NCBI GenBank assembly: GCA_020061705.1
Contig: JAGUXT010000055.1
Coordinates: 1 to 64,000, forward strand
Source of the DNA: Halothiobacillus sp.
Lineage (GTDB): Bacteria > Pseudomonadota > Gammaproteobacteria > Halothiobacillales > Halothiobacillaceae
Direction of reading: 5' to 3'
Length of the DNA stretch: 64,000 bases
The position numbers and the translations under genes are program-made. Below, in pieces: positions 31,894-45,058 of the stretch (position 1 is the stretch's first letter; every line of letters starts with the position of its first letter). Under the pieces are notes generated by a model. It did no database searches. It saw nothing but the letters and a program-made list of their open reading frames with translations, and had not been told where the DNA came from.

Positions 31894-33264
31894 ATGAAAA
31901 AAATTGCTCTTGCCCTCGCTATTGCTACGCCCTTTGTCGCTTTCCCCGCTGCAAGTTGGGTGATTGGCGGCCAGATTGATTCCATTTTTGAACGTCAATA
32001 CGCTCAACTTAAAGACAACCCGTTTGTGGATATTGTCGAGCGCAAAACTCAGCGCGGAATATTCAGCACCGACGAAGTCACTACGTTTGCCTTGAAGCCC
32101 GAATTCACCGAGCAATTTGAGATTCAGAATGCCGGCGCGCCAGTGCAAGTTCCGCCCAAGCCGGTGCAGTTTGTGGTGCGCACCCGTATCAATCACGGTC
32201 CCATGCCTGCTTTCTCCGGAATCGGTCTTGCAAGTGCGCACTCCGAACTTGAGCTGGACAACCCGCTCATCAAGAAGCTGTATGCAGGAAAGTCACCATT
32301 GACCGTTGATACGCAGATTGATTTTGCGGGCGCGGGGCGTGAACAGGTTCGCAGCCCTGCCGTGGAGGGCAGTGTTGATGGCATTGAGCAGCTGGCTTGG
32401 GGTGAGCTGGCGGTCGATATTGATTTCAACAACGACTTCAGTGTCTGGAACATGCAGGGTGTGTGGCCTTTTTTGAAGGCACGCGGTACGAATGGATCGG
32501 ATCAGTTTGAGATGAAGGGCTTGGCAATGGAAGGGCGGCAGACGCGCCTATCCGCTGACAAACCGGATTTGTATACCGGACCTTTCAAAATCAGCCTGCA
32601 AAGTTTTGAATCCCAATCCAGGGATGCAGAGCGTCCGCCCATGCTTTTGGAAAAGCTCGTATTCAAAAGCGATGTCAAGGAAAGCGCTGGATTTATCGAC
32701 GTTTTTGCAGGCTATGAAGTGAATTCAATGCGTGTCGGCGAACAGGTCTTCCGTGCTGCCCATTTTGACCTTGCACTGCGACATCTTGAGTCGGCTGCAC
32801 TGGCCGATCTCAATAAAGTCTCGAACAGCATGAATTCCTCCAGTGAAAGCATGGACATGGAACAGATCAAACCACTGCTACGCCCACTTCAGGTTCTGCT
32901 TGAAAATAGTCCGGAGATTGCCATCGAACGCATGGGCATGAGCACGCCGCAAGGTGACATCAAGGCAAGCGCCCTGGTTAGGCTGCCCAATGCCAATGTC
33001 GGCAACCTTGAGACGGCGGCGGAAAACCCGATGCTGCTCATGAGTCTGGCCACAGTGCTGCAAGCTGATGCGCAGATTGCTCTGCCGGAAGTTCTGCTCA
33101 GGGAAAACCTCACGGCTCAGCAGACCGAGATGCTGGCTGCCATGGTTCAGGCAGGGTACGTCTTGAACAAAAGCGGCCAGCTTTCGACGGCTCTCAGCTA
33201 TGCCCAAGGCAATCTGACCGTCAACGGCCAGCCGCTCAATCCAGCGATGATGGGGATGCAGTGA
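31894..33264 (+). CDS. YdgA-family (DUF945) protein
   Basis: Protein of 456 residues in the YdgA/DUF945 family. One N-terminal hydrophobic segment (MKKIALALAIATPFVAFPAASWVIGG) acts as an anchor or signal, placing the rest in the periplasm. Family blocks: IERQYAQL-like IFERQYAQLKDNPFV, IVERKTQRGIFSTDEVT and the INHGPMPAF segment. The C-terminal part contains NLTVNGQPLNPAM, the usual end. The function is not established. It is the last intact gene before the disturbed region with the attC site and truncated tadA. Confidence 0.82.
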   Translation: MKKIALALAIATPFVAFPAASWVIGGQIDSIFERQYAQLKDNPFVDIVERKTQRGIFSTDEVTTFALKPEFTEQFEIQNAGAPVQVPPKPVQFVVRTRINHGPMPAFSGIGLASAHSELELDNPLIKKLYAGKSPLTVDTQIDFAGAGREQVRSPAVEGSVDGIEQLAWGELAVDIDFNNDFSVWNMQGVWPFLKARGTNGSDQFEMKGLAMEGRQTRLSADKPDLYTGPFKISLQSFESQSRDAERPPMLLEKLVFKSDVKESAGFIDVFAGYEVNSMRVGEQVFRAAHFDLALRHLESAALADLNKVSNSMNSSSESMDMEQIKPLLRPLQVLLENSPEIAIERMGMSTPQGDIKASALVRLPNANVGNLETAAENPMLLMSLATVLQADAQIALPEVLLRENLTAQQTEMLAAMVQAGYVLNKSGQLSTALSYAQGNLTVNGQPLNPAMMGMQ

Positions 33265-33281: not shown

Positions 33282-33350
33282 GCCTAACGTTTATATTCAA
33301 CTGCTTCGTATGTTTTTTTGCGCAAGCTTCGTTGAAATGATGGGTTGGGC
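33282..33350 (-). other. Integron attC site (69 bp), isolated
   Basis: All four attC boxes are present with symmetric spacing. On the plus strand: GCCTAAC (33282-33288), 7 bp, TTCAAC (33296-33301), a central variable part, GTTGAA (33331-33336), 7 bp, GTTGGGC (33344-33350). The outer boxes fit RYYYAAC and GTTRRRY and the inner boxes are exact complements. The centre adds further imperfect pairing (GCTTCG with CGCAAGC). The length is typical of attC sites. Orientation is given as minus because the adjacent ORF on that strand reads through the site and stops in GTTAGGC, as cassette genes often do. No integrase gene or second attC was found in the window. Confidence 0.85.
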
Positions 33351-33637
33351 TCCGACGCGAAAGAGTCTTTAGAACTTGACCCGTGAATGGGCACTGCTGC
33401 TCTTGCTGAAGTCTCGGAGCGCTTGGGGACGCGGCGTGGCAGACCGTGAGCTTGGGATTGGTCGAATAGCGTACGGAAACGATATATCGATGCTGTTTTG
33501 CCACCGTGCTTAACGAGGACAAAACAGCGCGTACCTTGCGGAGTGGTTTGGGTCGAGATTTTAACGACACCATCAAATCCTTTTTGCGGCCATTTGTCGT
33601 GAAAGTGGAATAGCTCAAACAGAAATGGCGCGACCAC
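33284..33637 (-). CDS. Possible gene-cassette ORF, function unknown
   Basis: Reading frame of 117 residues from a GTG at 33637, ending inside the attC site: its last 22 or so codons are the attC sequence itself (NPSFQRSLRKKTYEAVEYKR, stop in the GTTAGGC box). That arrangement is common in integron cassettes. The N-terminal half, WPQKGFDGVVKISTQTTPQG and CFVLVKHGGKTASIYRF, looks protein-like but I do not recognise it. No good ribosome-binding site is seen. It may be a real small cassette protein or a decayed one. Confidence 0.4.
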   Translation of the reverse strand: MVAPFLFELFHFHDKWPQKGFDGVVKISTQTTPQGTRCFVLVKHGGKTASIYRFRTLFDQSQAHGLPRRVPKRSETSARAAVPIHGSSSKDSFASEPNPSFQRSLRKKTYEAVEYKR

Positions 33638-33641
33638 TATA

Positions 33642-33866
33642 TTAAATCGTCCGCCGGGGACGACGCTGTATGTGACGCTGGAACCGTGTCCGATGTGTGT
33701 GGGGGCAATGATTCATGCGCGGGTGGGGCGGGTGGTGTTTGCGGCGCACGGTCTGAAAACGGGGGTGTGTGGAAGCACGCTCAACCTGCCTGAATATCCC
33801 AGCCATAACCATCGTTTGTTGGTGGAAGGAGGGGTGTTGGTCGAGGAAGCGGCAGACTCGCCGTGA
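33642..33866 (+). pseudogene. tadA: 5'-truncated tRNA adenosine deaminase
   Basis: C-terminal part of TadA only, the enzyme that makes inosine at position 34 of tRNA-Arg(ACG). The retained piece begins near LNRPPGTTLYVTLEPC and contains the second zinc motif PCPMCVGAMIHARV and the family-like VCGSTLNLPEYPSHNH. The first 70 or so residues, with the catalytic HAE motif and the GEVPVGAV segment, are absent, and nothing upstream encodes them in any frame I checked. Without the HAE site it cannot deaminate. The homology stops abruptly beside the cassette-like ORF, about 33640-33648, so this is a rearrangement breakpoint. TadA is normally essential, so an intact copy is expected elsewhere. Confidence 0.8.
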
Positions 33867-33918
33867 GCATTTTTCATGGAAGACGTGTGAGTTTTGCAAA
33901 TGACTCCGACAAAAGAAA

Positions 33919-33981: not shown

Positions 33982-34485
33982 TTAGCGCTTGCCGTAAACC
34001 ATTTCAGCACGACGTTCCTGGCCGTAGCAGCTCTCGGAAGCATCGTTGCAGCTTGGCTTTTCTTCACCGTAGCTGACGATGGAAATTTGCGCGCTGTTCA
34101 CGCCTTGCAGTACGAGTGCATCACGCACGGCCATGGCACGCTTTTCTCCCAGGGCGATGTTGTATTCGGCGCTGCCACGCGGGTCGGTGAAGCCTTCGAT
34201 GGTGACTTGACGCTGGGCGTTGGCACCGAGGAAGGTGGCGTTTTCAGTGATGATGGGACGGTATTGTTGGCTGACAACGTAGCTGTCGTAGTCAAAGTAC
34301 ACGGTTGAGTTGATTTGTGAGGGCTTGCCCGCGTAGAGCTTGCTTTCGTCATAGTCGGATCCACTCAGGCCGGTAGTGCCGGCTCCAGCGCCTGCGCCAG
34401 CCCCGCTTCCGACTTCTGGGGTTTCGCTACAGGCGGCCAGGCCGAGCATGGCAAGGATAAGGGCTGAGGTTTTGAGCATGCGCAT
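33982..34485 (-). CDS. pal: Pal, peptidoglycan-associated lipoprotein
   Basis: Outer-membrane lipoprotein of 167 residues. Signal peptide with lipobox LAAC (C19), a flexible glycine/alanine linker (GSGAGAGAGAG), then an OmpA-type peptidoglycan-binding domain: STVYFDYDSYVV, TIEGFTDPRGSAEYNIALGEKRA and ISIVSYGEEKP, where the D and R of the GFTDPRG/RA blocks bind diaminopimelate. Pal normally anchors the outer membrane and works with Tol proteins; no tol gene is next to it here, so it could be Pal proper or a Pal-like OmpA lipoprotein. The start may be 34485 or the ATG at 34479. It has its own terminator. Confidence 0.85.
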   Translation of the reverse strand: MRMLKTSALILAMLGLAACSETPEVGSGAGAGAGAGTTGLSGSDYDESKLYAGKPSQINSTVYFDYDSYVVSQQYRPIITENATFLGANAQRQVTIEGFTDPRGSAEYNIALGEKRAMAVRDALVLQGVNSAQISIVSYGEEKPSCNDASESCYGQERRAEMVYGKR

Positions 34486-41374: not shown

Positions 41375-41638
41375 TCATTCGTAATGTGACCACATGCGCA
41401 GAACCTTGACGATATTTTGCTCTGGCAGCACTTCATAAACGAGGCGATGTTGAATGTTGATGCGTCGCGAATACGCACCAGACAAATCGCCGACGAGTTT
41501 TTCGTAGGGTGGCGGGTTTTGAAACGGGTTTTCCTTGAGGATGGCAAGCAGCTCTTGGGCTTTGCTTTTCAAGCCAGTTGCGGCAAGTTTTTGTGCGTCC
41601 TTTTGCGCGTGTTTGGCGTAAACAACGTCCCAACTCAC
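41375..41638 (-). CDS. yoeB: YoeB-type mRNA interferase toxin
   Basis: Toxin of 87 residues in the RelE/YoeB family that cleaves mRNA in the ribosomal A site. Residues known to be catalytic in E. coli YoeB are conserved at the same positions: E46 (PYEKL) and R65 (QHRLVYEV), with the C-terminal histidine-tyrosine pair at 85-86 (WSHYE). Its ATG overlaps the antitoxin stop by 4 bp, the usual coupling for this module. Confidence 0.95.
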   Translation of the reverse strand: MSWDVVYAKHAQKDAQKLAATGLKSKAQELLAILKENPFQNPPPYEKLVGDLSGAYSRRINIQHRLVYEVLPEQNIVKVLRMWSHYE

Positions 41639-41877
41639 CAGTCAAGCTCCTTGGCGCATGTGTCCGGGGCTTGAGTCATACCTTCCTTGATTGACTCGCG
41701 CATACCCGGCACGGCGAGCAGGTGGAGTGTTTCCTGAATGGCTTGCCAGTCTTCAGCAGCCAGAAGCACAACGTCATGACGCTTACCCGCAATGGTGATG
41801 GGCTGATGCGATTCGGCGGCCTGATCCATAAGGCGGTAAAGGTTGGCGCGTGCTTCGCTTGCAGTGAGTGTTTGCAT
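41635..41877 (-). CDS. yefM: YefM/Phd-type antitoxin
   Basis: Antitoxin of 80 residues: the Phd/YefM DNA-binding N-terminus (LTASEARANLYRLMDQA, then the PITIAGKRHDVVLLAAEDWQAIQETLHLL core) and an acidic, probably disordered C-terminal tail that wraps the toxin. It represses its own operon in known cases. AGGAG lies 7 bp before the ATG. A GTAC-GTAC operator candidate lies 23 bp upstream. Confidence 0.95.
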   Translation of the reverse strand: MQTLTASEARANLYRLMDQAAESHQPITIAGKRHDVVLLAAEDWQAIQETLHLLAVPGMRESIKEGMTQAPDTCAKELDW

Positions 41878-42102: not shown

Positions 42103-42549
42103 TCACACAACGTCCCGAATGTGTTTTGATAGTCCAAGGTAGTACGCGGCGAGACATATGCTGGAAATAATGAGGTCAAAAGCGTTGAACTCATCACTGT
42201 TGATGCCCACTGCATAGGCCACCGTATATATGAGCACGAGTGTCGGCAATGCAATAGCCGAATACCTCAAAAAATAGACGAATGAAAGTGACACATACCG
42301 TTCCAAAAAGTTCTGCCCCATAGACCCACCATTGATCCTGTATAGCCATACAGTCCCGGCCGCTGTCAGCACCAAATTCATCAGGCCAGAACCAATAGCC
42401 CAGTCGTTCATATCGTATGTGCTAATGGGGAATGAAATAAATGCGCTGGTCAGAAGCACGCTCATAAGCAAATACGAGAATTTCGCTGCCTCAGAGAGTT
42501 TTCGTTCACTTAACTGAGTCTTTAATTCGTTGATTTTCCACCAGATCAT
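42103..42549 (-). CDS. Small four-helix membrane protein, unknown
   Basis: Predicted inner-membrane protein of 148 residues with about four hydrophobic segments (FSYLLMSVLLTSAFISFPI, IGSGLMNLVLTAAGTVWLY, VYFLRYSAIALPTLVLIYTVAYA, FDLIISSICLAAYYLGL). A short basic/amphipathic N-terminus precedes them. I do not recognise the family. ATG 42549 is preferred (AAGGA about 9 bp before it); the frame is open to 42594. The sequence is visibly richer in A+T than the neighbouring purB, and the gene stands alone between a toxin-antitoxin pair and purB, which suggests acquired DNA. Confidence 0.6.
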   Translation of the reverse strand: MIWWKINELKTQLSERKLSEAAKFSYLLMSVLLTSAFISFPISTYDMNDWAIGSGLMNLVLTAAGTVWLYRINGGSMGQNFLERYVSLSFVYFLRYSAIALPTLVLIYTVAYAVGINSDEFNAFDLIISSICLAAYYLGLSKHIRDVV

Positions 42550-42648
42550 TACGTAAATCCTTAGTTGTTTGAATTTATGGGTGCTGCGCTGCAATATTGC
42601 GCAGCGTCCGGTGAATGAAGGAAACGAGCTCGACCGTCGAGTTGGGTG

Positions 42649-45058
<2,410 letters not shown>

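Follow-up and report, generated by a model that had tools for sequence, protein, structure and literature searches.

Why does a recombination site of the integron type lie among housekeeping genes, close to a broken tadA, in a genome whose assembly contains no integron integrase? We addressed this question in a stretch of 64,000 nucleotides from Halothiobacillus sp. (contig JAGUXT010000055.1, positions 1 to 64,000), analysed as a whole and called here the window. The answer that best fits our results, to which we give roughly three chances in four, is that a chromosomal (sedentary) integron has decayed here and left the site as its scar, and that a deletion took the integrase gene intI, the attI site and half of tadA. 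The locus has the following features, given by position in the window:

31894-33264, plus strand: DUF945 gene, the left flank of the putative former integron (Pfam DUF945, E 1.9e-73)
33282-33350, minus strand: attC recombination site, with R'' GCCCAAC and R' GTTAGGC in array orientation; its bottom strand is the plus strand of the window
33284-33637, minus strand: 5'-truncated, DUF3223-like cassette gene (Pfam DUF3223, E 0.0024, 18.8 bits, profile positions 20-66 of 75)
33638-33645, no strand: putative deletion junction, where the 5' end of the DUF3223-like gene stands head-to-head with the middle of tadA
33643-33875, plus strand: 3' half of tadA, a pseudogene (NF008113, profile positions 74-149 of 165, E 2.2e-23)
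33982-34485, minus strand: pal, the right flank beyond tadA

A weakened attC site

The palindrome of 69 bp at 33282-33350 reads, on the plus strand, GCCTAAC-GTTTATA-TTCAAC-...-GTTGAA-ATGATGG-GTTGGGC. The outer boxes (GCCTAAC and GTTGGGC) fit the pattern RYYYAAC ... GTTRRRY and pair at six of their seven positions, with one G-T pair in addition. The inner boxes (TTCAAC and GTTGAA) are complementary, the 7-nt spacers are unpaired, and a 1-versus-3-nt bulge lies on the 3' side of the folded plus strand. The boxes, the spacers of 7 bp and the complementary inner boxes described in the initial annotation can thus all be read from the letters. A scan of the entire window for outer boxes complementary at 6/7 positions or more, combined with exact 6-bp inner boxes, found this architecture at one place only, the one under study, and chance produces it 0.03 times per window (100 dinucleotide shuffles). 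The folding of the bottom strand, proposed in the same annotation as a check, gives the shape of an attC: a 7-bp outer stem, a bubble of 7 nt on each side, a 6-bp inner stem and the 1-versus-3-nt bulge. The fold is weak though (-7.2 kcal/mol, z -1.2): five sister sites range from -13.8 to -34.3 kcal/mol. The site has kept its boxes and its central stem has weakened.

A covariance model, another proposed check, also recognizes the site. We built it from six attC sites, excluding that of the window, which scored 45.3 bits when held out (E = 3.8e-10). The model was trained on a single attC type, because diverse types aligned poorly (RNAalifold recovered only their outer stem), and may overlook sites of any other type in the window. 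Across eight aligned sites, a small alignment, six pairs of the stem have changed on both sides, which was equalled by none of 500 shuffles. When the DNA around the window attC was used as a query, it retrieved five places in the same genome and in relatives, with 70-77% identity over ~70-100 bases, and several of these sit amid further attC-like palindromes. Searches of Rfam with the palindrome and of a plasmid collection with the window site returned no match. A sister site matched three plasmids, and no integron integrase is annotated in the two of them whose surroundings were examined.

The same attC type occurs inside integrase-associated arrays of other Halothiobacillaceae (G006, G010 and G014). 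In the complete genome G006, a long array of this type starts 1.6 kb from a full integron integrase, and in G010 and G014 the model matches share a contig with intI. Matches were found in 12 of 24 related genomes; six of these 12 carry intI or a fragment of it, and neither is present in any of the 12 genomes that have no match. This is not the distribution of a dispersed repeat in integron-free genomes, the case that the initial annotation had named as speaking against an attC. The palindrome is a genuine, weakened integron attC that reads on the minus strand. Its orientation has consequences for what should surround it. In G006, the array reads on the plus strand, its 69-bp sites run GCCCAAC...GTTAGGC (R' = GTTAGGC), and intI stands at its left end, on the minus strand. 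By this orientation the window attC reads to the left, which would place intI to its right, on the plus strand.

Broken genes in the window and junctions in relatives

The attC begins 17 bp past the stop codon of the DUF945 gene. The DUF3223-like gene is oriented like a cassette gene and also ends like one, its 3' end reaching into the attC. Its score of 18.8 bits is just below the Pfam cut-off of 21, and the protein has no close relative in 57 genomes or in the plasmid collection. Because its resemblance to the family starts at profile position 20, the beginning of the gene is missing, and the 5' part has been lost at the same point as that of tadA. The homology to DUF3223 stops at ~33626, and the DNA homology of tadA to its relatives starts at ~33643-33646. 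The attC had been described as lying exactly where tadA was broken; the break is instead at ~33,640, about 290 bp to the right, with the truncated cassette gene in between. The DNA of the tadA fragment and that of the intact gene in the congener G003 are 91% identical. When aligned with the intact genes of relatives, it shows an in-frame TGA at 33864-33866 and altered conserved residues, and has therefore decayed, not merely been cut.

Two genomes of the same genus match one side of this locus each. In G004, an intact attC (-34.3 kcal/mol) lies ~20 bp past the stop of the same DUF945 gene. The genes behind it differ from those in the window and are in cassette orientation; one is a fragment of an Acg-family FMN oxidoreductase. 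The tadA of G004 opens another contig and precedes pal-ftsK-lolA-rarA, in the order found in the window. In G002, contig C108 (L102) carries an intI that is a pseudogene (it has internal deletions and a TAG) and ends ~10 bp before the start of tadA. Both genes have the orientation predicted from the window attC, and on the far side of intI there are choloylglycine-hydrolase and DUF1254/DUF1214 genes in cassette orientation. C108 belongs to a draft bin and measures 4.5 kb, its tadA is cut by the contig end, and the bin has a second, complete tadA that is 85.6% identical over the 216 bp shared; C108 may be a stray contig from another (sister) species. The genus thus contains both the left junction (DUF945-attC, in G004) and the right junction (intI-tadA, in G002), on separate contigs. 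No single genome has DUF945, the attC array, intI and tadA in one piece, and the contigs of G002 and G004 break inside the region. We infer that these junctions mark the opposite ends of one ancestral platform.

The locus varies within the genus: both tadA and pal have differently arranged surroundings in G003 and G001. G003 has no remnant before pal or behind DUF945. Its only tadA has been relocated near bioB and comF-like genes (L104, G003:C37), and the counterpart of this place in the genome under study (C21:27954-30127) is without tadA. A search by DUF945 for named relatives found none. A search by guaA found a cave MAG labelled Halothiobacillus neapolitanus, with 96% identity, whose contig stops at guaA.

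attC sites without an integrase

The initial annotation regarded the site as solitary, with neither an integrase nor a neighbouring attC in view. The missing integrase extends to the whole assembly, in which the best match to TIGR02249 reaches 78 bits against a cut-off of 265. Within the window and at the junction there is no trace of intI, the search giving only a chance-level match of 54 aa at 33% identity. The site is not solitary, since the covariance model identified a second, degenerate attC at a distance of 9.2 kb and three further ones on contig C44 of the same genome. The second site and the gene that follows it are:

42564-42625, minus strand: second, degenerate attC behind purB (30.3 bits, E 6.9e-6), with decayed outer boxes and a clear core
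42103-42549, minus strand: cassette-like ORF of 148 aa that follows the second attC, with no Pfam or NCBIfam match

With filters off, this attC is still second-ranked (E 1.1e-6 in 10 kb). It sits between purB and the 148-aa ORF, which is in cassette position. Just past this ORF, in the same orientation, there is a pair of genes for a YoeB-like toxin and a Phd/YefM antitoxin (41375-41877, minus strand). Toxin-antitoxin pairs of this kind are common integron cassettes; no attC was found beside this one. On C44, two of the sites (42474-42545 and 43136-43202) frame an ORF of 204 aa and make it a proper cassette. The C44 cluster (L002, G000:C44:41636-44706) has no integrase, its 204-aa ORF belongs to no known family, and a DUF3224 gene lies beside it. 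Overall, five attC sites remain in the genome, and a complete integron, in which intI with attI stands beside attC sites, is absent from it for want of intI. The complete genome G008 has many matches to the attC model, at several loci (L251, L019), and no integron integrase above the cut-off. Loss of the integrase with retention of attC arrays is thus recurrent in Halothiobacillaceae.

Clusters of attC sites lacking an integron integrase (CALIN) are read as degraded integrons by IntegronFinder (PMC9024848), and cases with a single attC can be true positives (PMC9024848). The C44 pair fits this class. The window attC resembles it by the lack of intI in the assembly, but the locus has one clear attC, and the next one, 9.2 kb off, is degenerate, which places it below the default threshold of two.

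Integron scar or secondary insertion

If the site is the scar of a sedentary integron, the ancestral order would have been DUF945 (plus strand), the last attC and other cassettes with their genes on the minus strand, attI, intI (plus strand), tadA (plus strand) and pal (minus strand). Recombination between attI and attC, mediated by IntI on the folded bottom strand, is an established mechanism, and the cassettes would once have been acquired in this way. A deletion, probably a single one, would then have fused the last cassette gene (DUF3223-like), in its 5' part, to codon ~74 of tadA, at ~33,640, at the cost of attI, intI, whatever cassettes stood between and the 5' half of tadA. The attC, placed at the far end, would have escaped, and its stem would be drifting in the absence of the integrase.

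The initial annotation left two origins side by side, the remnant of an array and a cassette inserted at a secondary site. The former is now favoured over the latter, because an intact attC occupies the same place in G004 and because intI adjoins tadA in G002. Under secondary insertion, a cassette would have entered an attG-type site behind DUF945 by means of an integrase from elsewhere, and an unrelated deletion would later have hit its gene and tadA. Such insertions are documented (Loot et al. 2024, in the account given by PMC12444791), and attC sites without intI are present at several loci in this genome and in its relatives. The locus also shares with solitary attG cassettes, as that account describes them, a single attC without an array, but here the position is conserved in a second species and intI lies next to tadA in a third. 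Random insertion does not predict that the position of the attC is kept in G004 or that intI adjoins tadA as expected in G002; both junctions would have to be coincidences, which makes this scenario unlikely.

Far less probable is that the junction at ~33,640 is an artefact of assembly that joins two unrelated pieces, and that the real chromosome has an integron and a whole tadA. Assemblies are known to go wrong at integron repeats (PMC9024848), and this assembly has a tRNA-Arg(ACG) gene and no intact tadA. Yet the tadA fragment, with its in-frame stop and altered conserved residues, has decayed as well as been cut, and both flanks, on the DUF945 side and on the pal side, match the two contigs of G004. 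We give the least credit to a terminator, a REP-type element or another dispersed repeat resembling attC, for which one might invoke the weak central stem and the lone copies of this type on a few plasmids, but which is opposed by the score of the held-out site (E 3.8e-10), the presence of the type inside intI-linked arrays, the covariation of the stem across eight sites and the lack of a match in Rfam.

The loss of an integron together with part of tadA bears on the decoding of arginine. A ribD-like match aside, the broken half at 33643-33875 is the only copy of tadA in the assembly, and the tRNA-Arg(ACG) is encoded at G000:C55:20961-21033. This tRNA is the substrate of TadA. An intact tadA match is also absent from G012, G019 and G037, so the cautious reading is that an assembly gap could explain the missing gene. 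It seems improbable that the organism has no functional TadA in spite of this tRNA, and that the decay of the integron forced a change in the reading of CGN arginine codons, by inosine-free decoding or by another deaminase. The missing tadA nevertheless raises a question on arginine decoding that can be checked.

Integrons in decay and attC sites without an integrase have ample precedent (PMC9024848, PMC12444791), to which this case would add tadA as anchor and partial victim. In the sedentary integrons of Xanthomonas, intI is fixed beside ilvD, and stops, frameshifts or large deletions have often inactivated it (PMC12444791). The locus resembles them in that an integrase fixed next to a single housekeeping gene would have been inactivated or lost while attC sites remained, and differs in that the flanking gene is tadA, half of which the deletion would have removed. 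In the literature covered, which lies outside subscription journals, no paper links Halothiobacillus to integrons together with attC or an integron integrase, and no report of an integron in Halothiobacillaceae was found. Our results suggest a readable case of the death of a sedentary integron, whose integrase would have been broken in one lineage and deleted, with half of a housekeeping gene, in another. The attC ends would survive as the scars of the dying integron, and tadA is a candidate integron anchor in Halothiobacillaceae.
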